Position numbers and translations under genes: made by a program. A model generated the notes under the pieces. The model saw only the letters and a list, made by a program, of their open reading frames with translations, made no database searches and was not told the DNA's origin. DNA of 64,000 bases from Siphonodentalium dalli (Eukaryota > Mollusca > Scaphopoda > Gadilida > Siphonodentaliidae): positions 85,847,980 to 85,911,979 of the forward strand of contig CP136063.1 in assembly GCA_032622095.1 (NCBI GenBank), written 5' to 3'. Numbering within the stretch: position 1 is the stretch's first letter; every line of letters begins with the position of its first letter. This document shows, in pieces, positions 7,451 to 61,194 of the stretch.

Positions 7451-7725
7451 ATGTCTCTTGCTGCACTGTTAAAGAAATATAACTTTGAGCGGATAACGGA
7501 TAAAGAAAAAGATGCTCTACATGATGAATTGGAACAATTCCGTTGGAAACTGAAGGACGGAGATGCTGATAATGAACCGGGCAAAATTGAACTGACTACT
7601 GATCAGCTGACTGAGGCATTTAAAGTACTCCAGGGGAAGGTATGCGTTCCAACATTTCCTGGACGTCATTCTGAACCTCGTTATGTCTCAGCGGTAGCAT
7701 TAAATTTCCTCACAGATCGAATGGA
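7451..7725 (+). CDS. Coding exon 1 (start codon)
   Basis: This exon encodes residues 1-91 plus two bases, starting MSLAALLKKYNF. It has a charged helical stretch (TDKEKDALHDELEQF) and a second helix (TTDQLTEAFKVLQGK). The donor is GTGAGT at 7726. A GTATGC at 7640 is a weaker candidate donor, but splicing there would put exon 2 in a frame with an immediate TAA. The longer exon joins as GA+C (Asp) and keeps the frame open. Intron phase 2. Confidence 0.8.
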
Positions 7726-10700
7726 GTGAGTATCTACAATTATATTCTCTTGCTTGATTTTTGTAACAGGTCTTTGCCTGTGTAGGTTACAAGATCAACC
7801 CTTGAAATTGGCATTTTTCTTTTACGGCATTGCTTTATATTAATTGCATGAAATCTGTATTAGCTTTTATAGTTTTGACTATGGCAATTGCCTTTTGCCG
7901 CAGCTAATTTTGAGGGATATAGGTGCCATGTTCATCTGTTTGATCTTATCAAAGTTGTATACTAGTATATTATTTTAGTGCCCTGTGCACACACATTATC
8001 TGCACTATTTTAATTACAGCAGTTAATGGTTCAAGTGTAATTGAACGTGTGTTTAATGCCTGGTGTGCGAGAGATGATAAAAGCATATTGGCATTTACAC
8101 TAGACGGAAATTAATTAGGTCTGTGGGACTATATATGAAACTGATAGACTATAGATCAGACACACAGCAAAATAATCTAGTTGTATTCAATGGAAATTGC
8201 AAACTTTCCCTCATCAAAATGACTTAAAATCTACAATCTACGGTTAATCTGATTTCCCAGAATACAACAAAATTCTTGTTGTCGGATTTGTAAATCAAGG
8301 AAGTCTATCGGTACAACATATACATGATATTTTGGAAATAAATACAGTCTCAAATTAAAAAAATTTTGGTTACTTTTTCCCTTCCTGTTCACTTTTTATA
8401 TCCCCTAATTTGCAGAAAAAAAATGCACAATTGAGGCGACAAATGGGTGAACATCATCAACTTCAACTGAGGAACTTCAATCTGATCCTATGTCTCCCAT
8501 AGCAGTTGAGGCCTAAGCAGTATGAGGTCCCCAGAAGGTGAATTAGGTGATGCTAGCCTGCCATCTAAATTCACCCACTCGGGACCTCATTCTGTAAATG
8601 TCATTGATTTCCAGGCCTGTTATTAGTAAAGAAATGGTTAAAACCGATATTTCCAGGCATGCTGGAGCCAGGAGCGGATTGGGGTATAGGGTCACCTGAC
8701 CTAATTTCCATCTGGGACAGTTGTCTGGGAGGCAGAAGAGGGAGAAAGTAGACTTGAGTCGGCTTGAGATAGATTTTAGCTCAACTTGACTTTGTTATCA
8801 TTTGCATTTGGGAAGAATATTGCGTGACCTATATCCATTTTTGTACATGCAAATTGCGGCAGCTTTATATTGTCATTATAGCGATTGCGGGACTGGGATA
8901 TTGGCGAATATTTATTAAACATAATTATGAAGATTCATGAACAAATGAAAATTAAAAAATCACTTGAAAACAATGTTTCTGTTCGAATACAATCAAATGC
9001 TGAGTATTAGACATTAGGCTAGCTGCCAATGAGTCTGACCGCATGGTAAAACCACTTCATTGCAAGTTCATTGGAACTTCATCCACTAAGATTACTCAAA
9101 CTTAGAAGTATAGACCCTGCATATAAAAATCGGGTTCTACAGAGATTGCATACTGCAAATTTCTTTTTGTTTTCTTGGAGCAGAACGAAATGTGCCCAGA
9201 CATCTCATTTACGCATTTCTCGAGTATCCTTACAAGATACTGTCTACAGGTACTACTAGTGAGTTGGACAGTAGATGTCAAATGACCAGGCCGTACTGCA
9301 TTGAAAACGATCATGATTGCATTGATCTTTGCCGACGACTCAGTGCACATGTTTCATGGACATTGGAACATCAGAGATGTCGTCATGCATCTTTGATGTT
9401 AAGCCGCCAAAGCCCGACTATGTAGGCGACATGTAATTTGCGAATTCATGGAAGACTTTTGATCTTGTATCAGTTTTTTTTCTCTTACTTTGAATGCTTA
9501 ATTTCGACTATACCCCTTTGAGTGATAACATTTGTAGCAACATTGATATAGTACACATTTTTTAAAGCTACTGTTGAAAGTCTCACACTGATTAAGGACC
9601 TGAATACGTTAGTTTATGTCCTTGGCATTGCGTGTGTCTATTACATAGTGGTTTATGGGTTGATCGTACTTCAACCGGTTGAGGAGGACGAATCACAGTA
9701 AAAAATAATAATTTGGGTCGGTCAGGATATTGGAAACACAGGTATTATTGTTTTAAGCCTAATCCAAATTCACCTGCAGCTGGCTCGCATTAGAGTGAAA
9801 GTTCATCCAACACAATGGGCTGACTACAAATCGCTCAGCATGAGGCAGACATAATGGGAGATTAGCTCAACTCTGATAAAAAAATAAAAAATCACGGATC
9901 ACTCATGGCTTAGCATGAATAACTCATATGTGTGACCATCCGCCAAGTGATCCATAGACAAAGTAATGTTGAAAATGCTTTTCTCTCTTTTCCCCGCTCT
10001 CTCCTCTTATACTAGCTCTATCTTCGCCCTCCCTCCTATAATAGATATATATATATCTTTCTCTTCTTCATTTTCTCTCCCTCTCACCCTCCCTCTGCCT
10101 CTGTCACAACATTATCATAAACTTGAAAAAAATATTTTTTGGGTGATGAGGGAGGTGCCTTAGAACACAGTATTATTTATTTATGTATTTTGCCTTACTG
10201 TATTGGTATGATATTTGTTTTATAAAATCAGGCATGAGTTGTCATACATTTTAGTGGACCTCTGACCTAACAATTCCGGTTTAGTTACATTATATATGTT
10301 TACCACTTTACTTATATTACAGCACTCTTCTGGAGAATAAGAAGGCAAAGGAAAGCCACTTTGGTTCTGTTCTGTATGATTTCTACATGGCTCTGATGAA
10401 AAGTGGCCCGGGGACAGGACATATAGAGTTAATGGATGAGGTCCTAAAATGTAACGATGTTCTGGAGGATTACTGTAAGGTAAGTATGATTAGGCCAAAT
10501 AAAAAAAGTATTTTGGTTTGGGTTTCCCGACCAACCCTATTTTTTGCGTGCGACCCTAAACATTTTTCCGCCCCACAGGCAAAAAGAAAAAAATCGCGTA
10601 TTATACAGGTATGATTTACCAAAGTATATTACTGGTACGAATTATCGTAAGTATGCACATCCACTGTTATCGGAGTGTATAATGAATACACGCAATACAA

Positions 10701-13700: not shown

Positions 13701-16700
13701 ATTTGGCTCGGTTGTTAACATTGTCATGTAAATGGGAATGAGTCATTTGGGGTCATTCGGCAAAAAATCATGGCTGCCAGTGGCCATCTTGGATTTCGAA
13801 ATTTATTCCATTAGCATGGGCTACATGTTGTACCTTTTGGTCAGATCATCATGAAATTTGTCATGGATGTTAATATTGACATGCAGATGGGAACTTTTCA
13901 TTTTGGGATCATTCGGCCATAAAACATGGCTGTTGGCAGCCATCTTGGATTTAACTTTTTGCATTAACAATCCTTTGTAACGGGCTACAGGTCGTACCTT
14001 TGTTCGGATCATCATGAAATTTGTCATGTCTGTTAACATTGACATGTAGATGGGAACTAGTCATTTTGGGATCATTTGGCCATAAAACATGTCTGCTGGT
14101 AGCCATCTTGGATTTTACTCTTTGGCACACCCTACAGTCCACTTCCCTCTTCCGATCGTCACCAAACTTCATATTAATCTTTGATATTGATCTACTAGAT
14201 GGAAGCTATCAAATGTTTTTGAATTTCATTGGAAACATAGCCACCAGCAACCATCTTGGATTATACTTTATAGCCATCTCGTCATGTTGATAATCTAGTA
14301 TTACTTAGACATTTCAACTATCCGCATTCCTAATTGCTCCTTTGACTGTAACACATGAAATTTATCCTTTTCCAAGTTAAGCTAAAGTGGCATTGACACT
14401 TTAATTGACCATTTACAAGATCTTCAACTCATTATGTTGGAATATAAGATTTTATGAAACCCGTTTAATAAAATCTTATATCCAAACATAACTCGTTGGA
14501 GATCCTCTATATATATTTTAGATAAAGAGAGCATATTTCTGTGATGTGTACAGTAATGTCCTAATTAATTGACTGCTTAACTAACCACAGCAGAATTGTG
14601 GGTAACTTTTCAGGATTTAGTCGGAAATATGGCTTGTTGCCATTCATAGGAAAGCTTTCGGCGAGAGCTTTCCGATGAATGGCAACAAGCCATATTTCCG
14701 ACTAAATCCTGAAAAGTTACCAATAATTCTGCTGTGGTTAAGCAGTCGATTAATTAGGGCATTACTGTATATGTGCATGAGCTAATCTGATATGAATGTA
14801 CTCACCCTCTAAGTTCTAAAAATGGGGGTGCGCTCATCTTTGAGGACCACCCCATGATTTTTTTGGGAGCAAAAACTTAGACTCAGGGATGTCACTACTG
14901 ATGGTTTATGCAGTACAGTAATGCCCTAATTAATCGACTCCATAACCACAGCAGAATTATGGGTAATTTTTCAGGATTTAGTTGGAAATATGGCTTGTTG
15001 CCATTCATCTCTCGGGAGAGCTTTCCGATGAATGGCAACAAGCCATATTTCCGACTAAATCCTGAAAAATTACCCATAATTCTGCTGTGGTTATGGAGTC
15101 GATTAATTAGGGCATTACTGTATAAAATTCCATTAGTTGGTAGAATTCCATGCTAAGAATTGTTTGTCAACCATGAAATTATTATATTGTCATAGTCAAC
15201 TTTAGAACTTAGTTGATGCGACCATTCCTATAAATTTTAGAGCTATTTATATTGGTGCTTGAGGTCTATAATTCAATGTAGCTTACACAATATTTTTGGG
15301 ATGGGGATTGACGATCAGCCTCATGCGTTATTAAGCAGCGTTATGAATAATCAGATCATGTGGCTTTGAAAATATTTTGGCCTGAGATTTAATCAAACTG
15401 ATTCTTTGTGACCTTCATAAAATGACCTTTAACCTTTCAGGCCATGGATGATAAGAAGGTGGAGAAGTGCATCTCAGATTTACAATTTCCCTACAGTTAT
15501 GAGAAGGAGAGTGTGTTCGGTGATCGTGAGAAGGATGAGCTGTCTACATATACGTCTCTTCTGGAACACTCAATTCGTTATAATTTGTTTGACACTTTAC
15601 TGTAAGTTGATAATCTGATAAGTCTGATTATAAATTTTCAAATGGATTAGGTCATAATGATCTACTGAATTATGATTGGGTAGGTCATTCTAAATTTAGT
15701 AGGTCAATTTAGTGGGGAAATGGTCATAATTAAGCTTAAAGGCTCTCTTAATTTTCGAACCCCCAGATCACATATATAAAATATATGCCATATTATATAC
15801 CATTTGAAAGAGGAAGCTCCAAAACATTGTATTATAAACTTATCCGGTATAATAAACTGTGAACATGTGAACATTTTTGTTGAGTTACCGACGTGTGTTT
15901 GTGTTTCATCTGGTTTTGTTGTGCAAAGTGTATTATTTTCAATGGATGGCGAATAACTCTATATTCTAAAGATAGAATTATTCCGCTTCGATTGAACATA
16001 CAGTTTTGGTTTGAATTCTGTTCCATTCTGGGAGCCATAATGGGGGAAATGATTTCAGCTATTTTCTATCACTCTATGGGCACGTTCTGAGACACAGTTA
16101 TTCCAAATGGTGATGAATTATAGTATCTTAATCATATTTTATGACATAGATTATTATTAAAACCGTATATCAAGACTATACAAAGAATAATCGTTGACTC
16201 AAAAATTAAGTGGGCCTTTGACCTATTGTCTGAAACTTGCTGGTCATAAAACACTGTCCTCATACACTCATATATTGTCATGACCAGTGATGACTACCCA
16301 TCAATTTGCATGATCTGCGATGGATGACATCACATAATTGTAGTTACGTCACCATGGTAAAGGTGTGAATCAGTTCGTAAAATAGGTTTGAAATCAATAA
16401 ATACTGTTACAGTTGATTTGATTTGCAATATTGCACCACAAAAGTATAGACCAAACTCACTTTCAAATAGTTAGTTATCATTATTATGCATAACATGTCG
16501 TAGTTTTAGCATATGTGATAATTTGAATGTAATTAGCAGGTGTGCAATGAGCATAATGATGACAACAGACCAGTACTACCCTAATATGCACAAAAAGACG
16601 TTATTTGACCGAAATAGACACATTTTCCCGCATTTAGGCCCACAGGTATTTACTTGTGATTATGCTGATGAATTATGAGTAACTTTCCAACTACAACTTC

Positions 16701-52700: not shown

Positions 52701-55700
52701 ATTCAAGCTTGTGTTGTCTAAGACAGATGAATTTATTGATGAGTATTCATACGAGCGCTCGATATTTGGATGGATGTATAGCAGAGATCTTCAAATGTGG
52801 ATTGACCGGGTATGAAAACCATTTGTCCAGGCCTGATTTTTAGAAGTGCAATCTTTTATATGCCTTCACCATGCCTAAATTGTAAGGCCCTGGAAATTGG
52901 CCCATTTAAAATATTATCCCGAAATCGTTATCTCGAGTGTATCAAGAGTGAAGAGATGGAGCAATTCTGGAAACACTTACAGTAATGCCCTAAGTAATCG
53001 ACTCCTTAACCACAGCAGAATTATGGGTAACTTTTCAGGATTTAGTCAGAAATATGGCTAGTTGCCATTCATCGGAAAGCTCTCAGTGAGAGAGCTTTCC
53101 GATGAATGGCAACAAGCCATATTTCCGACTAAATTCTGAAAAGTTACCCATAATTATGCTGTGGTTAAGGAGTCGATTACTTAGGGCATTACTGTAAATC
53201 GGTAGCCACATTGATTCAAAAACCTCACAATAATCACAATCATCAATGGATTTTTTATTACCAAATCATAGAGATACGCAGCACGACACGAGTGTGTTAA
53301 TAACTTTGTGGATACGGCGATAGAACGAGAGGCTGTACGTATTGACAAATTAATTAAAACATGTGTTGTTCTGTGTTTATTATACCCGTGCTAGAATCCG
53401 TGAATTAAAAAAAACATGGGCTTGTTTCGTCATGTGTGATGATGCTTTTATTTAATAGTTTTATGGTTGAAGCGAAAGTCATTTAATCAACGGGATGCGT
53501 ATGGAATATGTGTTCGGTACGGATTTGTAAATATGTAACAGAGGAACACTAATTCTGGGAACATGTGTGTAATAATAATGTGCCTTCTACGGAATGGGCT
53601 GTCTACAATTATACGAAAGCAACAAGATATACAGTAAACTAGAATGTACATGCCCTGGCTAACTTCGTGGCTGATCATCGACAACAGGCGACAATTTTGT
53701 GACAGTGCTTCAACTGTAATTTTTCCCCACCTCTTTGAAAGTAACCGGTACATCTTACCGAAATCCGAAAAATTCCATATTACAGTGAAGTAACTTTAGC
53801 TTGCAAAGAGGGTTTTTATTTTTTTCAGAAATTTTATCGGCAGATTCATAATTCAAGTTATTGGGTTGGTCTCGCCTAAATTGATAAAATAACTATTTCA
53901 CTTGCCTGATTTTCTGGAATGCCAGGCTTGTAAACACTATCTTCTGCATTAAAAATGCTATAGATATAAAATTGATGAAAACTAACTTTACTTTTTATTA
54001 TTTTTACAATTTTCCTAACTTTAACCCTTTACCCAACAGAAGGGCCCTGTGCCAATGCATTCTCTTATATATGCGAGTCGACCATAGGTCGCCTCGCATA
54101 TATAAGAGAATGCATTGGCTTAACACATTAAAAATTATAAAATTGTTAAAGAATGTAAGAAAAAATGGTAAAAAGTGTTAAAAACAGATTTATTTTAGGC
54201 CAATGCATTCTCTTATATATGCGAGGCGACCTATGGTCGACTCGCATATATAAGAGAATGCATTGGCACAGGGCATAACTGTAACCATCACAATGTGGTC
54301 AATGAGCCGGTTCCAATGATATCCATATTTGTATGGTTTTATTGAGACAGACCCAAGATAATTTAGGCTGTTGCAGCTTTATTTGGCCGTTTTTGGCCGG
54401 TTTGTTGGGTTAGGGAAAAACTGCAATGAGCACAATTGGGGACATGTTGTTGGTTTGATTAATTACCATGACCATCTGTCTGTCACCATGTAAGTGCAAA
54501 AATTCCAACAAACTTATCTTGTCTATGGTTTTTGCTCATGGATATCCTGGAAGAATTCGCAAACCAATACTGTCTTGATTATTTTTTGTGTTGTGCCTCT
54601 TAGATTGTTTTTCTGATAGATTCGTGATGAAAGCATGATAACAAAAAAACATTGTCCGATTTTGACCAAATTTGGTTTGTGGCTACTACTCATGATCAAG
54701 CACAAATTGCTTTATTATACCACAATGTGACTGTAGCATCTGTGATGCGCTCCTCTTGTTTTTGCATGAGGGGGTTCTTCAGCATACAGAGTAGTGATTT
54801 ACATGGTGAAACTGCTCTACTGGGATATCTGTGCTTCTCTGGTTGTTTCCCATTGACCCTTCCTATACTAAATTGATGAGTATTCCCTTCGGAAATGTTC
54901 AGATAAGAAGTTCCACAAACGACCATTTAACAAATGTAATTTCCTTTGTCCATTTCCGACAAATCTGGTCATTGGCCAATTTAGCCACTCGAGCTAACCA
55001 TTATTACTGACCGCATGAACCCTCGAGCTACCCATTGTTACTGACCGCATGAACCCTCGAGCTAGCCATTATTACTGACCGCATGAACCCTCGAGCTAGC
55101 CATTATTACTGACAGCATGAAACCTCGAGCTAGCCATTGTTACTGACCGCATGAACCCTCGAGCTAGCCATTATTACTGACCGCATGAACCCTCGAGCTA
55201 GCCATTATTACTGACCGCATGAACCCTATTAGCTATAGCCATTATTACTGACCGCATGAACCCTCGAGCTAGCCATTGTTACTGACCGCATGAACCCTCG
55301 AGCTAGCCATTATTACTGACCGCATGAACCCTCGAGCTAGCCATTATTACTGACCGCATGAACCCTCGAGCTAGCCATTGTTACTGACCGCATGAACCCT
55401 CGAGCTAGCCATTATTACTGACCGCATGAACCCTCGAGCTAGCCATTATTACTGACAGCATGAAACCTCGAGCTAGCCATTGTTACTGACCGCATGAACC
55501 CTCGAGCTAGCCATTATTACTGACTGCATGAACCCTCGAGCTAGCCATTATTACTGACCGCATGAACCCTATTAGCTATAGCCATTATTACTGACCGCAT
55601 GAACCCTCGAGCTAACAATGTTACTGACCGCATGAACCCTCGAGCTAGCCATTATTACTGACCGCATGAACCCTCGAGCTAGCCATTGTTACTGACCGCA

Positions 55701-58700
55701 TGAACCCTCGAGCTAGCCATTATTACTGACCGCATGAACCCTCGAGCTAGCCATTATTACTGACAGCATGAACCCTCGAGCTAGCCATTGTTACTGACAG
55801 TATGAACCCTCGTGCTAGCCATTATTACTGACAGCATGAACCCTCGAGCTAGCCATTATTACTGACAGCATGAACCCTCGAGCTAGCCATTGTTACTGAC
55901 AGCATGAAACCTCGAGCTAGCCATTATTACTGACAGCATGAACCCTCGAGCTAGCCATTGTTACTGACAGCATGAAACCTCGAGCTAGCCATTATTACTG
56001 ACAGCATGAACCCTCGAGCTAGCCATTGTTACTGACAGTATGAACCCTCGAGCTAGCCATTATTACTGACCGCATGAACCCTATTAGCTATAGCCATTAT
56101 TACTGACCGCATGAACCCTCGAGCTAGCCATTATTACTGACCGCATGAACCCTATTAGCTATAGCCATTATTACTGACCGCATGAACCCTCGAGCTAGCC
56201 ATTATTACTGACCGCATGAACCCTATTAGCTATAGCCATTATTACTGACCGCATGAACCCTCGAGCTAGCCATTATTACTGACCGCATGAGCCCTCGAGC
56301 TAGCCATTGTTACTAACAGCATGAACCCTCGAGCTAGCCATTGTTACTGACCGCATGAACCCTCGAGCTAGCCATTGTTACTGACCGCATGAACCCTCGA
56401 GCTAGCCATTGTTACTAACAGCATGAACCCTCGAGTTAGCCATTGTTACTGACAGCTAGAACCCTCGAGCTAGCCATTATTACTGACAGTATGAACCCTC
56501 GAGCTAGCCATTGTTACTGACCGCATGAACCCTCGAGCTAGCCATTATTACTGACCGCATGAACCCTCGAGCTAGCCATTGTTACTGACAGCATGAACCC
56601 TCGAGCTAGCCATTATTACTGACCGCATGAACCCTCGAGCTAGCCATTGTTACTGACAGCATGAACCCTCGAGCTAGCCATTATTACTGACCGCATGAAC
56701 CCTCGAGCTAGCCATTGTTACTGACCGCATGAACCCTTGAGCTAGCCATTGTTACTGACAGCATGAACCCTCGAGCTAGCCATTATTACTGACAGCATGA
56801 AACCTCGAGCTAGCCATTGTTACTGACCGCATGAACTCTCGAGCTAGCCATTGTTACTGACCGCATGAACCCTCGAGCTAGCCATTATTACTGACAGCAT
56901 GAACCCTCGAGCTAGCCATTGTTACTGACCGCATGAACCCTCGAGCTAACCATTGTTACTGACAGCATGAACCCTATTAGCTAGCCATTATTACTGACAG
57001 CATGAACCCTCGAGCTAGCCATTATTATTGACAGCATGAACCCTCGAGCTAGCCATTGTTACTGACCACATGAACCCTCGAGCTAGCCATTGTTACTGAC
57101 AGCATGAACCCTCGAGCTAGCCATTATTACTGACCGCATGAACCCTCGAGCTAGCCATTATTACTGACCGCATGAACCCTCGAGCTAGCCATTGTTACTG
57201 ACAGCATGAACCCTATTAGATAGCCATTATTACTGACAGCATGATCCCTATTAGCTAGCCGTTATTACTGAACGCATGAACCCTCGAGCTAGCCATTATT
57301 ACTGACCGCATGAACCCTCGAGCTAGCCATTGTTACTGACCGCATGAACCCTCGAGCTAACCATTGTTACTGACAGCATGAACCCTCGAGCTAGCCATTG
57401 TTACTGACCGCATGAACCCTCAAGCTAACCATTGTTACTGACAGCATGAACCCTCGAGCTAGCCATTATTACTGACCGCATGAACCCTTGAGCTAGCCAT
57501 TATTACTGACAGCATGAACCCTCGAGCTAGCCATTGTTACTGACCGCATGAACCCTCGAGCTAGCCATTATTACTGACCGCATGAACCCTATTAGCTAGC
57601 CATTATTACTGACCGCATGAACCCTCAAGCTAGCCATTATTACTGACCGCATGAACCCTCGAGCTAGCTATTGTTACTGACAGCATGAACCCTCTAGCTA
57701 ACCATTATTACTGACAGCATGAAACCTCGAGCTAGCCATTATTACTGACCGCATGAACCCTCGAGCTAGCCATTGTTACTGACTGTATGAACCCTCGAGC
57801 TAGCCATTGTTACTGACAGTATGAACCCTCGAGCTAGCCATTATTACTGACAGCATGAACCCTATTAGCTAGCCATTATTACTGACAGCATGATCCCTAT
57901 TAGCTAGCCATTATTACTGACAGTATGAACCCTATTAGCTAGCCATTATTACTGACAGTATGAACCCTCGAGCTAGCCATTGTTACTGACAGCTTGAACC
58001 CTCGAGCTAGCCATTGTTACTGACAGCTTGAACCCTCGAGCTAGCCATTATTACTGACAGTATGAACCCTCGAGCTAGCCATTATTACTGACAGCATGAA
58101 CCCTCGAGCTAGCCATTATTACTGACCGCATGAACCCTCGAGCTAGCCATTATTACTGACCGCATGAACCCTCGAGCTAGCCATTATTACTGACCGCATG
58201 AACCCTCGAGCTAGCCATTATTACTGACAGCATGATCCCTATTAGCTAGCCATTATTACTGACAGTATGAACCCTCGAGCTAGCCATTATTACTGACCGC
58301 ATGAACCCTCGAGCTAGCCATTATTACTGACCGCATGAACCCTCGAGCTAGCCATTATTACTGACCGCATGAACCCTCGAGCTAGCCATTATTACTGACA
58401 GTATGAACCCTCGAGCTAGCCATTATTACTGACCGCATGAACCCTCGAGCTAGCCATTATTACTGACCGCATGAACCCTCGAGCTAGCCATTATTACTGA
58501 CAGCATGAACCCTCGAGCTAGCCATTATTACTGACCGCATGAACCCTCGAGCTAGCCATTATTACTGACAGTATGATCCCTATTAGCTAGCCATTATTAC
58601 TGACCGCATGAACCCTCGAGCTAGCCATTATTACTGACAGCATGATCCCTATTAGCTAGCCATTATTACTGACAGCATGAACCCTCGAGCTAGCCATTAT

Positions 58701-61194
58701 TACTGACCGCATAAACCCTCGAGCTAGCCATTATTACTGACAGTATGATCCCTATTAGCTAGCCATTATTACTGACAGTATGATCCCTATTAGCTAGCCA
58801 TTATTACTGACAGTATGAACCCTCGAGCTAGCCATTATTACTGACCGCATGAACCCTCGAGCTAGCCATTATTACTGACCGCATGAACCCTCGAGCTAGC
58901 CATTATTACTGACAGCATGAACCCTCGAGCTAGCTATTATTACTGACCGCATGAACCCTCGAGCTAGCCATTATTACTGACAGTATGATCCCTATTAGCT
59001 AGCCATTATTACTGACCGCATGAACCCTCGAGCTAGCCATTATTACTGACAGCATGATCCCTATTAGCTAGCCATTATTACTGACAGCATGAACCCTCGA
59101 GCTAGCCATTATTACTGACCGCATGAACCCTCGAGCTAGCCATTATTACTGACAGTATGTTCCCTATTAGCTAGCCATTATTACTGACCGCATGAACCCT
59201 CGAGCTAGCCATTATTACTGACAGCATGATCCCTATTAGCTAGCCATTATTACTGACAGCATGAACCCTCGAGCTAGCCATTATTACTGACCGCATGAAC
59301 CCTCGAGCTAGCCATTATTACTGACAGTATGATCCCTATTAGCTAGCCATTATTACTGACCGCATGAACCCTCGAGCTAGCCATTATTACTGACAGTATG
59401 ATCCCTATTAGCTAGCCATTATTACTGACAGCATGAACCCTCGAGCTAGCCATTATTACTGACCACATGAACCCTCGAGCTAGCCATTATTACTGACCGC
59501 ATGAACCATCGAGCTAGCCATTATTACTGACAGCATGAACCCTCGAGCTAGCCATTGTTACTGACAGCATGAACCCTCGAGCTAGCCATTATTACTGACA
59601 GCATGAACCCTCGAGCTAGCCATTATTACTGACCGCATGAACCCTCGAGCTAGCCATTATTACTGACAGTATGATCCCTATTAGCTAGCCATTATTACTG
59701 ACCGCATGAACCCTCGAGCTAGCCATTATTACTGACAGCATGATCCCTATTAGCTAGCCATTATTACTGACAGCATGAACCCTCGAGCTAGCCATTATTA
59801 CTGACCGCATGAACCCTCGAGCTAGCCATTATTACTGACCGCATGAACCCTCGAGCTAGCCATTATTACTGACAGCATGAACCCTCGAGCTAGCCATTAT
59901 TACTGACCGCATGAACCCTATTAGCTATCCATTATTACTGACAGTATGAACCCTCGAACTAGCCATTATTACTGACAGCATGATCCCTATTAGCTAGCCA
60001 TTATTACTGACAGAATGAACCCTCGAGCTAGCCATTATTACTGACCGCATGAACCCTCGAGCTAGCCATTGTTACTGACAGCATGAACCCTCGAGCTAGC
60101 CATTGTTACTGACAGCATGAAACCTCGAGCTAGCCATTATTACTGACAGCATGATCCCTATTAGCTAGCCATTATTACTGACAGAATGAACCCTCGAGCT
60201 AGCCATTATTACTGACCGCATGAACCCTCGAGCTAGCCATTGTTACTGACAGCATGAACCCTCGAGCTAGCCATTGTTACTGACCGCATGAACCCTCGAG
60301 CTAGCCATTATTACTGACCGCATGAACCCTCGAGCTAGCCATTGTTACTGACGGCATGAACCCTCGAGCTAGCCATTGTTACTGACGGCATGAACCCTCG
60401 AGCTAGCCATTGTTACTGACCGCATGAACCCTCGAGCTAGCCATTGTTACTGACCACATGAACCCTCGAGCTAGCCATTGTTACTGACCGCATGAACCCT
60501 CGAGCTAGCCATTGTTACTGACAGCATGATCCCTCGAGCTAGCCATTATTACTGACAGCATGATCCCTATTAGCTAGCCATTATTACTGACCGCATGAAC
60601 CCTCGAGCTAGCCATTATTACTGACCGCATGAACCCTCGAGCTAGCCATTATTACTGACAGCATGAACCCTCGAGCTAGCCATTGTTACTGACAGCATGA
60701 TCCCTATTAGCTAGCCGTTATTACTGACCGCATGAACCCTCGAGCTAGCCATTATTACTGACCGCATGAACCCTCGAGCTAGCCATTGTTACTGACAGCA
60801 TGATCCCTCGAGCTAGCCATTATTACTGACCGCATGAACCCTCGAGCTAGCCATTGTTACTGACAGCATTATCCCTCGAGCTAGCCATTGTTACTGACAG
60901 TATGATCCCTCGAGCTAGCCATTGTTACTGACAGTATGAACCCTCGAGCTAGCCATTGTTACTGACAAATTCTGAATTTTCTTCTGTAGCATGGACAGAG
61001 CAGGACTCTACAGTGCTGTCAAACTTTAGTTCCCCTTCTGATGGATGCTCTGGAAAAATATGTTGACGACTCAAACTTCGACAATGGAAACAGAATGATC
61101 TATGACATAGCCAGAACTGAACCAGAGATAATCGCGGAGCATACAGAAAAGATTATTGAGCTCACAGTCAAACATTTAAATAATGAACTTCTTA
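7451..61194 (+). CDS. Large multi-exon gene for a HEAT/ARM-like alpha-solenoid protein (15 coding exons, 3' end beyond window)
   Basis: Exons: 7451-7725, 10323-10479, 15441-15601, 18819-18987, 20840-20976, 21936-22074, 23546-23673, 31759-31882, 34164-34306, 36079-36202, 46078-46199, 46872-47019, 47999-48120, 52653-52809, 60990-61194. All have AG/GT borders and join in one open frame of 770 codons plus one base. The product is rich in Leu, Lys, Glu and Asp in amphipathic helical patterns, with no signal peptide or membrane segment, so probably an intracellular helical-repeat scaffold. Intron phases alternate 2 and 0 for 14 introns; exon pairs form modules ending near residues 144, 254, 346, 430, 519, 609 and 702. 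I do not recognise the family. A solenoid such as the N-terminal region of Melted/VEPH1 is a weak, unverified alternative. No catalytic motif is visible. The exon chain is firm; the fold is inferred; the function is unknown. Confidence 0.85.
8345..8628. mobile_element. Two-hairpin MITE (CAAGCCT family), partial, intron 1
   Basis: One complete hairpin (8516-8600) plus the linker containing CAATCTGATCCTATGTCTCC and a shortened end (CCAGGCCTG). The other hairpin is missing. Confidence 0.65.
8640..9975. other. Intron 1: no recognisable feature
   Basis: Overlapping frames at 9071-9425 on both strands have no motif and mutually exclusive codon use. I see nothing to support a gene. Confidence 0.5.
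9979..10102 (+). repeat. Pyrimidine-rich tract in intron 1
   Basis: About 120 bases dominated by CT and TC on the + strand (TCTCTCTTTTCCCC, CCTCCCTCTGCCTCTG), 220 bases upstream of exon 2. Confidence 0.7.
10323..10479 (+). CDS. Coding exon 2
   Basis: Residues 92-144. The acceptor is TTACAG and the donor GTAAGT. It encodes a helical segment containing SVLYDFYMALMKSG and ends DVLEDYCK, echoing the YK ends of exons 11 and 13. It closes the first, longer N-terminal exon pair. Intron phase 0. Confidence 0.85.
10920..11444. mobile_element. TTAA-flanked fold-back MITE (piggyBac-like ends) with a nested element, intron 2
   Basis: TTAA at 10916-10919 and 11445-11448. Ends match the element at 20530: left CTGTTCCATGACTAGAG, CTGAAATTTT and GCCTGTGCCAATGCATTCTC; right GCAGCGCAGCTCCCGTCAAG. 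The middle is replaced by a GC-rich element (10981-11375). Confidence 0.75.
10981..11375. mobile_element. Nested GC-rich inverted-repeat element
   Basis: Starts CCCCGCTGGACAAAACAAGT and ends with the complement of CCCTGCTGGACAAAACAAGT. The interior holds about five tandem copies of a 19-21 bp unit, GGCCGAACGGCAAGTACAC, plus inverted and degenerate copies. Flanks are TAA and TAT, so a 3-bp target duplication is possible but imperfect. Confidence 0.7.
11450..12440. other. Intron 2: no recognisable feature
   Basis: AT-rich noncoding sequence. A PolyA-like AATAAA context occurs by chance. Confidence 0.5.
12448..14290. mobile_element. Helentron/pearl-like nonautonomous element with ~165-175 bp tandem units, intron 2
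   Basis: Starts with ATTTTAGCTCACCTTTACTT and AGTTTGAGCTATTGCC, a short hairpin cap like the left ends of mollusc Helentron relatives. About ten head-to-tail units follow, each with ATCATGAAATTTGTCATGG, ACATGTAGATGGGAACGAGT, TTTTGGGGTCATTCGGC and CAGTGGCCATCTTGGATTT. Units alternate between two variants (CAAAATTCAATCCATTAGCA versus TTTTACTCTTTG). The short frames on the - strand are translations of the repeat. Confidence 0.75.
14418..14512. repeat. Palindrome
   Basis: AGATCTTCAACTCATTATG...AATATAAGATTTTAT is followed 12 bases later by its imperfect complement (ATAAAATCTTATATCC...CGTTGGAGATC). Confidence 0.7.
14551..14767. mobile_element. TA-flanked palindromic MITE (mariner/Tc1-type target), copy 1
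   Basis: Nearly perfect ~100-bp arms (CAGTAATGTCCTAATTAATT...CCACAGCAGAATTGTGGGTA) meet at a short loop (GAAAGCTTTCGGCGAGAGC). Flanked by TA on both sides. No coding capacity. Confidence 0.85.
14916..15120. mobile_element. TA-flanked palindromic MITE, copy 2
   Basis: Same family 150 bases downstream; CAGTAATGCCCTAATTAATC to its complement, flanked by TA at 14914 and 15121. The short frames on both strands mirror each other because of the palindrome. Confidence 0.87.
15441..15601 (+). CDS. Coding exon 3
   Basis: Residues 145-197 plus two bases, between CCTTTCAG and GTAAGT. Encodes a Lys/Asp-rich helix (DDKKVEKCISDL), a Tyr-containing linker and a second helix (YTSLLEHSIRYNLFDTLL). First half of module 3+4, which at 110 residues is the longest pair. 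Intron phase 2. Confidence 0.85.
15740..16218. mobile_element. Imperfect inverted-repeat MITE, intron 3
   Basis: Left end AGGCTCTCTTAATTTTCG follows TTAA; the right end is the complement of AAAGGCCCACTTAATTTTTG. The interior (GAGCCATAATGG, CAAATGGTGATGAATTATAG) matches 49630-49935 in the opposite orientation. Confidence 0.65.
16660..17460. repeat. Diverged direct repeat pair in intron 3
   Basis: 16670-16800 and 17250-17375 share CATTGCGTTCCCAAAATGTT-like and TGCTTACAACATGCACTCAC-like phrases. An ATT microsatellite lies at 16774-16791. Confidence 0.5.
17530..17880. repeat. Two ~165-bp tandem units (pearl-type core), intron 3
   Basis: GCATGGTAACTGGAACAAAT / GCATGGTAACTTGAGCAATA, GAAAAGATGCAGGCC / GAGAAGATGCAGGCC and GAGTTATGCCCCTT (twice) recur at ~165-bp spacing. 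A more degraded third part (GTGGCTCACATTTGAGAACA) is at 18490-18520. Confidence 0.65.
18819..18987 (+). CDS. Coding exon 4
   Basis: Residues 198-254, between ACTTGCAG and GTATTT. Encodes a conserved-looking helix pair: KPSLVPKFIDLGYFYLAQHR, then FRACYGELVEGLFRKYED. The hydrophobic spacing fits a HEAT/ARM helix hairpin. Intron phase 0. Confidence 0.85.
19028..19452. mobile_element. Two-hairpin MITE (variant ends ATATGGTGCCAGA), intron 4
   Basis: Ends ATATGGTGCCAGA and TCTGGCACCATAT. Contains two hairpins based on GAGGTCCCCAGAGG. It lies 40 bases after exon 4. Confidence 0.8.
19522..19773. mobile_element. Two-hairpin MITE (CAAGCCT family), short form
   Basis: AAGCCTTGAAATAGTGTGTC to its complement, with two adjacent hairpins separated by CTGAGGTGTAAGCAG. 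No clear target duplication. Confidence 0.75.
20100..20320. repeat. Degraded pearl-type minisatellite unit
   Basis: Contains GCAGCCATCTTTGATTTTAC, TGCCACATCCCTCTTCTGAT and TAAAACATGGCCACCAAATC, matching units at 32.9-33.4 kb. Confidence 0.5.
20530..20784. mobile_element. TTAA-flanked two-hairpin MITE (piggyBac-like ends), intron 4
   Basis: TTAA at 20526-20529 and 20785-20788; ends CCCTTCCATGACTTGAGC and GAGCTCC-type complement CCCTTTCATGAAGGGAGCTG. It contains two hairpins on CAATGCATTCTCTTATATAA/TGCGAG and ends 50 bases before exon 5. Confidence 0.82.
20840..20976 (+). CDS. Coding exon 5
   Basis: Residues 255-299 plus two bases, between TAATTTTAG and GTAATG. Encodes two amphipathic helices (VCAYLRKLKDLYLCDTF and VDELIFVLKKILESKG). 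First half of a 92-residue module. Intron phase 2. Confidence 0.85.
21004..21338. mobile_element. TTAA-flanked element with CGACATATATGTCG repeats, intron 5
   Basis: TTAA on both sides (21000-21003, 21339-21342), ends CCCTTTCGAG and CCAAAGGG. Interior: ACGTCATATACATGACGTCA near the left and two copies of CGACATATATGTCGTTCTA near the right. Confidence 0.65.
21573..21880 (+). mobile_element. tRNA-derived SINE
   Basis: A tRNA-like head with an A box (TAGCTCAGTCGG) and B box (GGTTCAAATCC, 21643-21653), a ~180-bp body and a tail of CGACATTAAACCCCAATCAATCAATCAA. Flanked by a 15-base target duplication with one mismatch (TCTTCTTCAAACATA, 21558; TCTTCTCCAAACATA, 21881), showing LINE-type insertion. 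The tRNA part cannot form a normal acceptor stem, so it is not a working tRNA. Confidence 0.87.
21936..22074 (+). CDS. Coding exon 6
   Basis: Residues 300-346, between ATTTTACAG and GTAGTA. Encodes a helix (DALLCEAIDFIIALAPRK) and an unusual aromatic stretch (WTTGRYFYYRDKTVK) that is less helical than the other exons. A SINE and its target repeat end only 40 bases before this acceptor. Intron phase 0. Confidence 0.85.
22258..22382. mobile_element. Half of a two-hairpin MITE (CAAGCCT family)
   Basis: One hairpin plus the right end TATTTCAAGGCTTG; the left half is missing. Confidence 0.65.
22390..22795. other. Intron 6: no recognisable feature
   Basis: Noncoding sequence between repeats. Confidence 0.45.
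22804..23413. mobile_element. hAT-type nonautonomous element, 610 bp (GCCAAAT family), copy 1
   Basis: Ends CAGGGTCCGCGCTG and its complement CAGGGTTCGCGCTG, flanked by perfect 8-bp CATATACC (22796 and 23414). Both subterminal regions are filled with GCCAAAT/ATTTGGCA motifs. Same family as 34584-35183. Confidence 0.92.
23546..23673 (+). CDS. Coding exon 7
   Basis: Residues 347-388 plus two bases, between CATTCCAG and GTAAGA. Encodes KATKLFSLLAPKYIELLEK and KEMMDGVATCLMACPDM, a HEAT-like hairpin. The following 8.1 kb intron holds the tandem duplication. Intron phase 2. Confidence 0.85.
23870..23932. repeat. Hairpin at the head of the 67-bp minisatellite
   Basis: GGAAATGTTCAGATAATAAG...CTTATTATGTGAACATTTCC forms a stem with a GTCGTTTG-containing loop. 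A related half is at 54890-54945. Confidence 0.65.
23933..24343. repeat. 67-bp minisatellite, first block (about 6 units)
   Basis: Unit: GGGTTAACTTATTTTCTGAA, CATTTCCTATGGGATAACTA, CTCATCAATGAGTATTAAGT, ATAGAAA (67 bp). Each unit carries an internal ACTCATCAATGAGT palindrome. Confidence 0.9.
24344..26532. mobile_element. 2.19 kb inverted-repeat (hAT-like) element, copy A
   Basis: Begins CAGGGTTTCCGGC and ends with the complement of CAGGGTTCCGCC. It is inserted in the minisatellite, with GATAACT on the left and GATAAAT on the right, a 7-8 base target duplication with one mismatch. No transposase is recognisable; the small frames inside carry no motif. A hairpin (25009-25070, ACGCCACAACCGTCCAATC) and a nested GGTCCGGTCC-ended element lie within it. 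Confidence 0.7.
25658..26403. mobile_element. Nested element with CCGGTCCGGTCC ends
   Basis: Clusters of GGTCCGGTCCA at 25663-25730 and their complements at 26291-26400 bracket ~550 bp of AT-rich sequence. The exact ends are uncertain. The same arrangement is repeated at +2,532 in copy B. Confidence 0.55.
26533..26874. repeat. 67-bp minisatellite, second block (about 5 units)
   Basis: Same unit as at 23.9 kb; units vary at AGAAAAGG versus AGAACGGG and TTATTTTCTG versus TTATTATCTG. Confidence 0.9.
26875..29064. mobile_element. 2.19 kb inverted-repeat element, copy B (tandem duplicate)
   Basis: Essentially base-for-base the same as 24344-26532; the difference I found is one extra C in a C-run near 27505. 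It includes the nested GGTCC element (about 28190-28935). Confidence 0.9.
29065..29705. repeat. 67-bp minisatellite, third block (about 9-10 units)
   Basis: Same unit; two units carry a 3-base insertion (TATTATAAAGTATAG), so their period is 70 bp. The block ends where a two-hairpin MITE inserted. Confidence 0.9.
29714..29967. mobile_element. Two-hairpin hAT-type MITE (CAAGCCT family), perfect target duplication
   Basis: Ends CAAGCCTTGAAAT / ATTTCAAGGCTTG, flanked by identical 8-bp AGTGGGTT at 29706 and 29968. Two hairpins side by side, separated by CTGAGGTGTAAGCAG. Confidence 0.92.
30318..30650. mobile_element. Two tandem tRNA-like (SINE-related) units
   Basis: Two ~155-170 bp units share GGGACATCTCAATGTG, CATTC.GAT and TGAGAATTT.  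Each has a B-box-like motif (GGGTTCAAACCCTGAC at 30348; GGGTTCGAACCCCGGC at 30518). An A box is not clear. Confidence 0.5.
30850..31240. other. Intron 7: no recognisable feature
   Basis: Noncoding; nothing recognised. Confidence 0.4.
31289..31704 (+). mobile_element. 3' end of a DIRS-type retrotransposon
   Basis: 31289-31388 is an imperfect palindrome with CCATATAGTTCAGTGGGCAA at one end and its complement at the other, but unlike halves, as expected for an internal complementary region. The second half is the complement of 31634-31700 (CCATATAGTTTAGTGGGCAA...CTTCTAGGAGATATATATTT), the right terminal repeat. The matching left end is absent from the window. Confidence 0.6.
31759..31882 (+). 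CDS. Coding exon 8
   Basis: Residues 389-430, between AATTTTAG and GTAAGG. Encodes MWIKIIVILVRNTHPEYART and a second helix ARAIVRDMAKILDWK. It completes an 84-residue module with exon 7. Intron phase 0. Confidence 0.85.
31883..32800. other. Intron 8, first part: no recognisable feature
   Basis: Contains a T-run of about 19 near 32299. The frames seen have no motif. Confidence 0.45.
32805..33480. repeat. Pearl-type minisatellite, degraded (about 4 units), intron 8
   Basis: Starts with TATGGTATGGGTTGGCATCC and a TCCATCCGTCAGTCTGTCC stretch, then units with CACCAAACTTCATATGGATC, TGACCTCTAGATGGGA and ATTTTACTCTTTG at ~165-bp spacing. Confidence 0.65.
33533..34086. mobile_element. Pearl/Helentron-like nonautonomous element, intron 8
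   Basis: Begins TTATTATACCCCCACTTTCG with a hairpin (ATACCCCC...GGGGGGTAT), then TTCGTCCG/TCCGTCCGTCC, two ~165-bp units (AACTATGAACCGATTTCAAT / AAATATGAACCGATTTCGAT) and ends GGTGGGGGTATGCTAGCACG. It ends 77 bases before exon 9. Confidence 0.65.
34164..34306 (+). CDS. Coding exon 9
   Basis: Residues 431-477 plus two bases, between TATTTTCAG and GTATAT. Encodes VKEIAKAMASMKLPENN and LRDLADGFKNIMHKILSKLR. Highly charged and helical. Intron phase 2. Confidence 0.85.
34584..35183. mobile_element. hAT-type nonautonomous element, 600 bp (GCCAAAT family), copy 2
   Basis: Ends CAGGGTTCACGTTG and the complement of CAGGGTCCGCATTG, flanked by identical 8-bp GTTAAAGC (34576 and 35184). Inverted relative to copy 1 at 22804. 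Confidence 0.92.
35335..35690. mobile_element. Two-hairpin MITE (ATATGGTGCC variant), truncated
   Basis: Starts ATATGGTGCCGGACATTTAC, one hairpin, linker with GCTATGGGAGACCTAGGCAC; the second hairpin breaks off after AAGCAGAATGA. Confidence 0.65.
35786..35998. mobile_element. Two-hairpin MITE fragment
   Basis: AATAGTGTGTCTGACATTTG followed by one degenerate hairpin and part of the linker; ends 80 bases before exon 10. Confidence 0.6.
36079..36202 (+). CDS. Coding exon 10
   Basis: Residues 478-519, between TATTTCAG and GTATGT. Encodes GELTLLVLTYLGTGIEIF followed by an acidic helix (CDAAEDLASHIDFK). Completes an 89-residue module. The next intron is 9.9 kb and holds the DIRS-type element. Intron phase 0. 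Confidence 0.85.
36223..36381. mobile_element. TTAA-class two-hairpin MITE, split by the DIRS-type element (left part)
   Basis: TAACTCTTTCATGACGGAGC and GGTGCAGCATTAAA match the end of the element at 20530. One full hairpin (GTGCATTCTCTTACATGTGA...) and half of the second (GGCCTATGTATCCTCTTATA) are present; the remainder (ATGCGAGGGTCCC) continues at 40862. Confidence 0.6.
36406..36571. repeat. Left inverted terminal repeat of the DIRS-type element
   Basis: Includes ACTGAACTATATGGATATAT, GTAAACCATAGTAGGAAAGG and GTCACGCATGCGCAGTCCCA, each found complemented at 40652-40815. Confidence 0.85.
37854..38561 (+). pseudogene. Frame of 235 codons in the DIRS-type core, possible gag-like remnant
   Basis: The longest frame in the window outside repeats. 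A Gly run comes from the G-tract at 37957. The middle is rich in Ser, Asp and Ala (KASEAFDDDPSAHNTSDCGS), a composition seen in gag-like proteins, but I see no defining motif. Overlapping frames on both strands (37874, 38155, 38204 reverse) show it could be by chance. Its position inside the DIRS-type element argues against a host gene. Confidence 0.3.
38713..38945. repeat. Short direct repeat inside the DIRS-type core
   Basis: TCGGTCTATGCTGGATTTGT occurs at 38713 and again at 38922. Confidence 0.7.
40491..40590. repeat. Internal complementary region (ICR) of the DIRS-type element
   Basis: First half CCATATAGTTCAGTGTGAGG...TTTGGCGGAAA is the complement of the left end (36382-36420); second half ATTTTTCCTTAAAGAAAGCC...CACTGAACTAT is the complement of the right end (40805-40858). 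In DIRS1 such a region templates completion of the circular cDNA. Confidence 0.75.
40652..40858. repeat. Right inverted terminal repeat of the DIRS-type element with its extension
   Basis: Complement of the left repeat to 40815, then a unique extension (TTCAGGCTTTCTTTAAGGAA...TTTTAAAAAT) that matches the second half of the ICR. Confidence 0.8.
41324..41492. mobile_element. Long palindrome (fold-back element), intron 10
   Basis: GGGGATAACAGTGTGGTGTT...GGTACATGGCGAATATACTG and its complement meet at a GGGCGACGGCGGAGCCGGAG loop. A third diverged arm (GGTATAACGTTGTGGTGTTT) at 41917-41975 suggests the full element is longer. Confidence 0.7.
41995..42865. other. Intron 10: no recognisable feature
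   Basis: Noncoding; nothing recognised. Confidence 0.45.
42872..42909. repeat. Poly-C tract
   Basis: About 22 C, then TCT, then a further C-run of about 10. Such tracts are prone to length errors. Confidence 0.9.
43009..43459. mobile_element. TTAA-flanked inverted-repeat MITE, 451 bp
   Basis: TTAA at 43005-43008 and 43460-43463. Left AGGTACTCAATCCGATCAGA; right the complement of AGATGCATTATCCGAATTAA, imperfect inverted ends. A fragment of the same family is at 5072. Confidence 0.7.
43512..43619. mobile_element. TA-flanked palindromic MITE, single arm
   Basis: CAGTAATGCCCTAAATAATC through CATTCATCGGAAAGCTCTCA matches the left arm of the copies at 14551 and 52980; the right arm is missing. 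Confidence 0.8.
44047..45279. mobile_element. piggyBac-like nonautonomous element, 1,233 bp
   Basis: TTAA at both sides (44043, 45280). Ends CCCTTTCTTTACTAAATAC and complement of CCCCTTTCTTTACTAAATGG. TTAA plus CCC-starting ends is the piggyBac signature. No transposase frame is visible. Its left end resembles the 67-bp minisatellite unit. Confidence 0.72.
45610..45730. mobile_element. TTAA-class two-hairpin MITE, right half
   Basis: One hairpin (GGCCAATGTAATTTCCTATA...GAATACATTGGC), then GTTTTCGCAAAATGCCAGGA and a CGAAAGGGTTAA end at 45726-45737. Confidence 0.6.
46078..46199 (+). CDS. Coding exon 11
   Basis: Residues 520-559 plus two bases, between TTCTTTCAG and GTAAGT. Encodes SREQALEAIGAHLIKGVDE and ends VLESYK. 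It aligns over its whole length with exon 13: same start (x-S-P), same GV at the same spacing, same YK at the exon end, and same length (122 bp). Intron phase 2. Confidence 0.87.
46380..46711. mobile_element. TTAA-flanked fold-back element, 332 bp
   Basis: Nearly the whole element is one palindrome: AGGGGGACTGTACAATAAAT to its complement, with arms of about 150 bases meeting at ATGAGTTTATGACTCAAGTC. TTAA at 46376-46379 and 46712-46715. It sits between exons 11 and 12. Confidence 0.88.
46872..47019 (+). CDS. Coding exon 12
   Basis: Residues 560-609, between AATTTCAG and GTGAGT. Encodes KDLMSIYTNVLQKAEDHLGE and LKLAGHIFEWITT. It parallels exon 14, where an acidic linker is followed by a long helix starting in the same position. 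Intron phase 0. Confidence 0.87.
47020..47998. other. Intron 12: no recognisable repeat
   Basis: AT-rich intron without a hairpin or known repeat; unusual here for lacking any recognisable insertion. Confidence 0.45.
47999..48120 (+). CDS. Coding exon 13
   Basis: Residues 610-649 plus two bases, between CTTTCTAG and GTAAGT. Encodes IKLQSLQFINKLMEHGVEG and ends IIKCYK; the apparent paralogue of exon 11 inside the same gene. Intron phase 2. Confidence 0.87.
48688..49616. mobile_element. Pearl/Helentron-like element with four internal units, intron 13
   Basis: Starts TTATTATCCCTCGCCAAATT with a TTTTTAAATTT-type hairpin and a TCCGTCCGTCTGTCC stretch. Units of about 150-185 bp repeat CAACGGATTTCAAAGAT, GAGTTCGCAAGCCAGGTC and GACGACGTCACAGGGCTCAT. 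It ends GGGGGATACCGCCATCTGCG. Confidence 0.75.
49630..49935. mobile_element. Inverted-repeat MITE, related to 15740-16218, opposite orientation
   Basis: TTAA at 49626 then AGGCCCACTTAATTTTCGAG. Shares ATACGGTTTTAATAACAATA- and CATCACCATTTGAAATG-like phrases with the complement of the other copy. Confidence 0.65.
49940..50755. other. Intron 13: no recognisable feature
   Basis: AT-rich, nothing recognised. Confidence 0.45.
50763..52575. mobile_element. hAT-type element (GCCAAAT family), copy 3, split by a Harbinger-type insertion
   Basis: 50770-51046 and 52416-52570 match the two parts of the copies at 22804 and 34584 (GCCAAATACTATCCCTTA..., AGGTGTTAACTTTTCCTAAA, AAAAAGTGACGATGCCAAAA). Both CAGGG ends are eroded. 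Its right end lies about 80 bases before exon 14. Confidence 0.8.
51050..52412. mobile_element. PIF/Harbinger-type element, 1,363 bp, nested
   Basis: Ends GGCCAAAAAAAAAAGGGTTT (followed by TGATTCTCGGGCA) and its complement, flanked by TAA at 51047-51049 and 52413-52415; the unoccupied site is seen in copy 1 (CACTACTAATATAA). It contains three GAAATAGGGAGATTT repeats at 51368-51428. No transposase frame is recognised. Confidence 0.78.
52653..52809 (+). CDS. Coding exon 14
   Basis: Residues 650-702, following a T-rich tract ending TTTTTCAG, donor GTATGA. Encodes KENEVFISIFKLVLSKTDEF and an aromatic stretch (SIFGWMYSRDLQMWIDR). The donor is weaker than the others. The following intron is 8.2 kb and mostly satellite. 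Intron phase 0. Confidence 0.85.
52980..53194. mobile_element. TA-flanked palindromic MITE, copy 4 (complete)
   Basis: CAGTAATGCCCTAAGTAATC to its complement, arms of about 100 bases and a CTCAGTGAGAG loop, flanked by TA at both ends. Confidence 0.87.
53200..54015. other. Intron 14: no recognisable feature
   Basis: AT-rich noncoding; a frame on the - strand at 53487-53753 has no motif. Confidence 0.45.
54025..54274. mobile_element. TTAA-class two-hairpin MITE
   Basis: TTAA at 54021, then CCCTTTACCCAACAGAAGGG. Two hairpins (CCAATGCATTCTCTTATATA + TGCGAGTCGACC and complement) with inverted order at each end and CCCTGTGCC / GGCACAGGG bracketing. The right TTAA is lost. Confidence 0.72.
54280..54850. 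other. Intron 14: no recognisable feature
   Basis: Noncoding. Phrases such as TTGACCAAATTTGG hint at an old pearl-type unit, too degraded to call. Confidence 0.4.
54854..54950. repeat. Solo end related to the 67-bp minisatellite unit
   Basis: GACCCTTCCTATACTAAATT, TGATGAGTATTCCC, GGAAATGTTCAGATAAGAAG: the minisatellite unit in reverse orientation as a single copy. Confidence 0.6.
54985..60966. repeat. Satellite array, 34-35 bp unit, about 175 copies, inside intron 14
   Basis: Unit: GAACCCTCGAGCTAGCCATT, ATTACTGACCGCAT (34 bp). Variable sites: CCGCATG/CAGCATG/CAGTATG; ATTATT/ATTGTT; CTCGAGCTAGCC versus CTATTAGCTAGCC (35 bp) or CTATTAGCTATAGCC (37 bp). The middle third has a higher-order period of 172 bp. 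The units have stops in the frames I checked, so no long frame exists. CTCGAG and GCTAGC palindromes occur in nearly every unit. Confidence 0.97.
60958..60989 (+). promoter_or_regulatory. Splice branch point and acceptor of exon 15, partly supplied by the satellite
   Basis: Only 23 bases separate the last satellite unit (ending 60966) from the exon. They include a pyrimidine-rich TTTTCTTCTGTAG. The satellite's TTACTGAC fits the metazoan branch-point consensus (CTRAC core); its A at 60965 is 25 bases from the exon, a normal distance. Confidence 0.5.
60990..61194 (+). CDS. Coding exon 15 (last one in the window)
   Basis: Residues 703-770 plus one base, between TTCTTCTGTAG and GTAAGT. Encodes three helices: TLQCCQTLVPLLMDALEKY, NRMIYDIARTEPEIIAEH and KIIELTVKHLNNELL. 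It is longer than the other repeat exons (205 bp) and its downstream intron is phase 1, so the alternating pattern ends here. The pattern suggests a terminal or capping part of the solenoid. No further exon is recognisable before 64000. Confidence 0.82.

Follow-up and report, generated by a model that had tools for sequence, protein, structure and literature searches.

The 64,000-nt stretch of the Siphonodentalium dalli genome analysed here (the window; C3:85847980-85911979 within the 2.23 Gb assembly) holds the 5' part of a large gene. We consider it probable that this is an ecTIR-DC family 6-like gene, in which a sensor solenoid built from pairs of exons is joined to a homogenised Death-TIR-TIR output module. 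Invertebrates have no antibodies and carry many TIR proteins of unknown function, and the locus provides a concrete, testable build plan for one invertebrate TIR family: if the reading is correct, a rapidly changing solenoid of exon pairs precedes a conserved signalling end that has an NADase-type TIR and a predicted lipid anchor.

A 24-exon gene extending beyond the window

All gene models reported here are predictions from genomic sequence, exon borders included. Exons were found with a home-made scan that used generic splice and codon scores and imposed no phase pattern. On the plus strand, this phase-free scan recovered all 15 exons of a preliminary description of the window at the positions given there. 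In a control scan of a 93.7 kb region, 24 of the 25 internal plus-strand exons above threshold overlapped the gene, and the minus strand of the same region yielded a single internal exon at equal threshold. The end of the gene, previously placed at 61194, proved to be internal: reading a further 30 kb past the window added nine exons and a stop. The full model comprises 24 exons and encodes 1683 aa, in-frame throughout and with a single stop; its 3' end lies at C3:85929263, 17.3 kb beyond the window. The product length of 770 residues proposed earlier corresponds to the sum of exons 1-15 (770 codons), but not to the complete protein.

Exon 1 (7451-7725) contains the start codon and ends in phase 2 at the donor AATGGA/gtgagt; homologous first exons with the same end phase are found in three sister genes (paralogues A, B and C; see below). 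An alternative exon 1 ending in phase 0 at 7639, followed by a mini-exon at 8503-8537, was rejected. The mini-exon belongs to a dispersed repeat, in which its peptide QLRPKQYEVPR recurs, and the longer exon 1 can be aligned in paralogue B, so that the end at 7725 was preferred. An open reading frame at 38010-38505 that scored as an exon was discarded as well, since it does not fit the phase order and has neither a counterpart in the paralogues nor a Pfam match.

Domain composition and family assignment

The predicted protein consists of a helical solenoid (exons 1-18), a coiled coil (exon 19), a Death domain (exon 20), a first TIR domain (TIR1, exons 21-22), a linker (exon 23) and a second TIR domain followed by a low-complexity tail (TIR2, exon 24). 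The Death domain, central in the protein, was identified with Pfam above the cut-off (9.5e-11), and the C-terminal tandem TIR matched the Pfam model TIR_2 in two stretches (1e-42). The TIR1 and TIR2 exons also match each other. Inspection by eye of the predicted protein, which terminates in CSVL, a CaaL (prenylation-type) end, gave no obvious sign of a signal peptide or of a membrane helix. The domain identity and exon phases of the predicted gene are firm.

An ARM-like region combined with a Death domain and two TIR domains is the make-up ascribed to family 6 of the ecTIR-DC proteins of Gerdol et al. 2017, which is predicted to be cytosolic (PMC6836662). This family is gill-enriched in a mussel (PMC5549309), and the ecTIR-DC class is apparently absent from vertebrates (PMC6321704). 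The gene studied here shares with published descriptions of family 6, to which it was compared by description rather than by sequence alignment, the central Death domain and the two C-terminal TIR domains; its long N-terminal region is putatively ARM-like, and to the eye the model lacks any evident signal peptide or membrane-spanning helix. Judged by this domain composition, the predicted product is probably an ecTIR-DC family 6-like invertebrate immune protein, presumably cytosolic, which gives a name to a family that the preliminary description had not recognised. Set against the same descriptions, the two-exon phases, the CaaL end and the exon-restricted homogenisation described below are features of the present gene. 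In a search of the open-access literature, no relevant description of TIR proteins with a CAAX end came up, which does not in itself show that none exists.

The best PDB match of TIR1 is the TIR domain of SARM1 (3e-5), and TIR2 matches the bacterial NAD hydrolase AbTIR. The Glu of the TIR1 motif NCNRE aligns with the E of HKEI, the catalytic Glu of SARM1, and TIR2 carries an equal motif. These matches, together with a helical solenoid preceding a TIR domain with a catalytic-type Glu, raise the question of whether the gene is a SARM1 relative, in which an ARM solenoid autoinhibits a TIR NADase. However, SARM1 has two SAM domains, and Pfam detected no SAM between the solenoid and the TIR domains of our protein, which instead carries a coiled coil, a Death domain, two TIR domains and a prenylation-type tail. 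Membership in the SARM1 family fails on this composition, and we regard such a relationship as very improbable. MyD88 shares the order of Death followed by TIR, but is a short protein with one Death and one TIR domain and lacks the solenoid, the tandem TIR and the CaaL tail of the 1683-aa protein.

Paralogues on the same chromosome

A genome search with the TIR2 exon returned matches in at least 21 places, all 21 of which are on chromosome C3, and led to three sister genes, all on the minus strand. Paralogue A (C3:85806931-85846566) lies about 9 kb from the gene, head to head with it, paralogue B is located at C3:85736471-85788903, and paralogue C (C3:222998133-223074691) is about 137 Mb away. 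The phase-free scan found equal phases exon by exon in A, B and C, which have the exon order and the coiled-coil exon in common. The C-terminal tails are of the CaaL type in all four genes (CSVL in our gene; CVIL, CDIL and CVLL in the paralogues).

These comparisons bear on whether the model has fused two adjacent genes, one for the solenoid and one for the Death-TIR-TIR part, as the abrupt step in divergence between exons 19 and 20 (see below) could indicate. Arguing against such a fusion, the reading frame is kept at all 23 junctions, exons 15-24 are spaced like the others, the exon order, the phases and the coiled-coil exon recur in all three paralogues, and the fused architecture has been published for other invertebrates (PMC6836662). 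An artificial fusion is accordingly highly unlikely in our estimation.

The paralogues differ in the number of solenoid exons. Every exon except 12 and 13 was detected in paralogue B, where exon 3 initially escaped detection and its later recovery was weak. Exons 12 and 13, as well as four of those lying between exons 1 and 7, were not detected in paralogue A, and in paralogue C, exon 2 joins directly to exon 9, the intervening exons being undetected. The differences total 2 or 6 exons, where absence means failed detection; the absent blocks consist of an even number of exons in all three paralogues, with compatible phases and the frame kept, the split codons at the new junctions being left open. 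Whole-module gain or loss among the paralogues is likely, as judged from these non-detections; trees are weak on the ancestral state.

A predicted solenoid built at least in part from duplicated exon pairs

With exon 1 ending at 7725, the recomputed phases of introns 1-15 are 2,0,2,0,2,0,2,0,2,0,2,0,2,0,1. The earlier reading of 14 introns alternating between phases 2 and 0, followed by a fifteenth in phase 1, thus holds. If phases are independent, strict two-phase alternation across 14 introns has a chance probability of about 1e-6 to 2e-6. Exons 2-14, all on the plus strand, are of the 2-0 type when even-numbered and of the 0-2 type when odd-numbered. Exons of either type are asymmetric, so that a pair is the smallest unit that leaves the frame unchanged. 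The pairs 3+4 to 13+14 span 330, 276, 252, 267, 270 and 279 nt, in agreement with the 110, 92, 84, 89, 90 and 93 codons reported for them previously.

The exons upstream of the most similar pairs were supported by the scan and by the paralogues to different degrees. Exon 2 (10323-10479) was found by the exon scan and, in paralogue B, without phase constraint, and exon 3 (15441-15601), also found by the scan, has a weak homologue in paralogue B. Exons 4 (18819-18987), 6 (21936-22074), 8 (31759-31882), 9 (34164-34306) and 10 (36079-36202) were obtained in both the exon scan and the paralogue scan, and exon 5 (20840-20976) in the exon scan and by paralogue comparison. For exon 7 (23546-23673), the homologue in paralogue B is 43% identical over 37 columns.

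We built exon profiles from up to four paralogues and compared them all against all (153 pairs). The best two of the 153 comparisons were exon 12 (46872-47019) with exon 14 (52653-52809; hhalign E 1e-5) and exon 11 (46078-46199) with exon 13 (47999-48120; hhalign E 1.4e-5), in the exact register expected of a single duplication of a two-exon unit. Furthermore, exon 12 of our gene matches exon 14 of paralogue C (E 1.2e-5). The segments SPQSREQALEAI and SPDIKLQSLQFI, which the preliminary description had aligned, are present in pairs 11+12 and 13+14 with the common GV, and YK stands at the phase-2 junction in both. A true duplication of the unit 11+12 / 13+14 is supported by these profile matches. 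The preliminary description had extended this scenario to the whole array, with older pairs diverged, and had proposed aligning the modules by profiles. That comparison bears out 11/13 and 12/14, but the other pairs are not significant, and no module older than these has an individually significant match.

A collective signal is nevertheless discernible. Mean z-scores of global alignments were 1.13 for odd-odd, 0.92 for even-even and 0.27 for odd-even comparisons. The odd/even labelling of exons 3-14 gave a permutation p of 0.0022, near the floor for a balanced partition, and that of exons 3-10 alone a p of 0.026, which is close to the lowest value that 8 exons allow. The origin of the older modules by duplication is partly supported by this faint parity signal, each pair being unrecognisable singly by sequence. 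It could be argued that ancient introns happened to lie in alternating phases in an already complete solenoid, from which the pattern was inherited, and that recent duplication is confined to exons 11-14; after all, 11+12 / 13+14 is the sole pair detectable by profile comparison. We consider this rather unlikely, given that strict alternation across 14 introns would arise by chance with a probability of about 2e-6, that the same-parity likeness extends to the older modules, and that the apparent differences in exon number among the paralogues are even and leave the phases compatible. Under the duplication reading, the ancestral unit may have been two exons, or instead a single hairpin exon that was copied before the introns acquired their present phases. 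No relevant earlier report of intron-phase duplication in HEAT solenoids was found in the open-access literature, which does not establish that there is none.

The helical nature of the region, also proposed earlier, is borne out in part. No HEAT or ARM model of Pfam scored above the cut-off in the solenoid region, and a PDB search with the solenoid alone likewise gave nothing. However, a four-paralogue profile of exons 14-18 matched 2db0 over about 190 residues (E 0.0012), which we take to be a HEAT-like helical repeat protein. In single-exon fold predictions of moderate confidence, exon 14 forms one hairpin (helices 7-30 and 33-51), and exon 15 (60990-61194, plus strand, 0-1), recovered by the scan and tandemly duplicated in paralogue A, forms three helices. 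Searching for similar folds with the model of exon 15 alone was uninformative (best E 2.0). A resemblance to VEPH1/Melted was considered and dropped, as a literature search gave no support.

Discordant divergence of solenoid and output exons

Protein identity among our gene, A and B is 12-49% in exons 1-19, where synonymous sites are saturated (pS 0.59-0.94). In exons 20-24 it amounts to 82-99%, and dS is 0.06-0.39 (exon 24 over the TIR part); dN lies at 0.01-0.04 in exons 20-22 and in the TIR portion of exon 24. The step between exons 19 and 20 is sharp. In the comparison with the distant paralogue C, exon 21 is the one output exon with unsaturated synonymous sites (dS 0.38); it encodes TIR1 as far as the catalytic-type Glu. 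Exons 20, 22 and 24 are saturated (pS 0.75-0.87). Between our gene and A, DNA similarity ends 4-25 nt outside exons 20-24 and the introns are mostly unalignable. Between our gene and B, a 484-nt tract that is 93.6% identical includes more than 200 nt of the intron upstream of exon 22.

The uniformity of the Death-TIR-TIR exons might reflect very strong purifying selection that extends to synonymous sites, rather than gene conversion. The low dN and the end of similarity to A close to the exon borders agree with such selection. However, because exons 20, 22 and 24 are saturated against C, synonymous sites are not generally frozen, and the tract shared with B takes in intron sequence. We consider selection of this kind quite improbable as the explanation. 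Repeated conversion limited to stretches that are still alike is likely to explain the pattern better than general synonymous constraint. Taken together, the comparisons point to a homogenisation that is confined to the exons of the output module, next to a diverged presumed sensor, a pattern reported here as new.

Proposed mechanism

In the mechanism that we propose, each solenoid exon would encode roughly one alpha-hairpin, and the HEAT/ARM-like solenoid would lengthen and shorten by exon pairs. The solenoid may be an arm that senses or autoinhibits, comparable to the ARM domain of SARM1. Upon a trigger, the Death and tandem TIR domains would assemble at the membrane, anchored by a geranylgeranyl group on the CaaL cysteine, as predicted from the tail, and the output could be MyD88-like signalling and/or NAD+ cleavage. 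Recurrent gene conversion or exon-level exchange among the paralogues would hold their output modules alike despite the divergence of the solenoids. We advance more tentatively, as a possibility that we hold slightly less likely than its opposite, that these genes represent an animal intracellular receptor family in which turnover of two-exon sensor modules is combined with exon-by-exon homogenisation of a membrane-anchored output, even across about 137 Mb. If this is true, intron phase permits safe changes in sensor length while conversion protects the output.

Additional features of the locus and of the paralogues

In paralogue A, exon 15 is present as a tandem pair (C3:85825553-85826014, minus strand) with 90% DNA identity and 46 nt between the copies, both of which are open and have splice sites. 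Since exon 15 is of the 0-1 type, the two copies cannot both be used in frame, so that they may be spliced in a mutually exclusive manner, or one of them may be dead. In paralogue C, the 3' end of exon 2 (about C3:223073104-223073355, minus strand) is a 36-bp array of VCNENVFNDYAQ-type units, owing to which exon length and donor choice may be variable.

Intron 7 of our gene contains a direct duplication, in which the segment 24950-26769 is followed 2532 bases on by a copy that is 98.9% identical; the duplication adjoins 67-bp tandem repeats. A GC-richer stretch of intron 10 (37800-38561) holds a 253-codon open frame with no Pfam match, which is probably a mobile-element remnant. Most of intron 14 is made up of a 34-bp minisatellite of about 175 copies (54988-60966, strand not applicable), which spans six kilobases, ends 23 nt before the acceptor of exon 15 and accounts for the strong GC skew of this interval.
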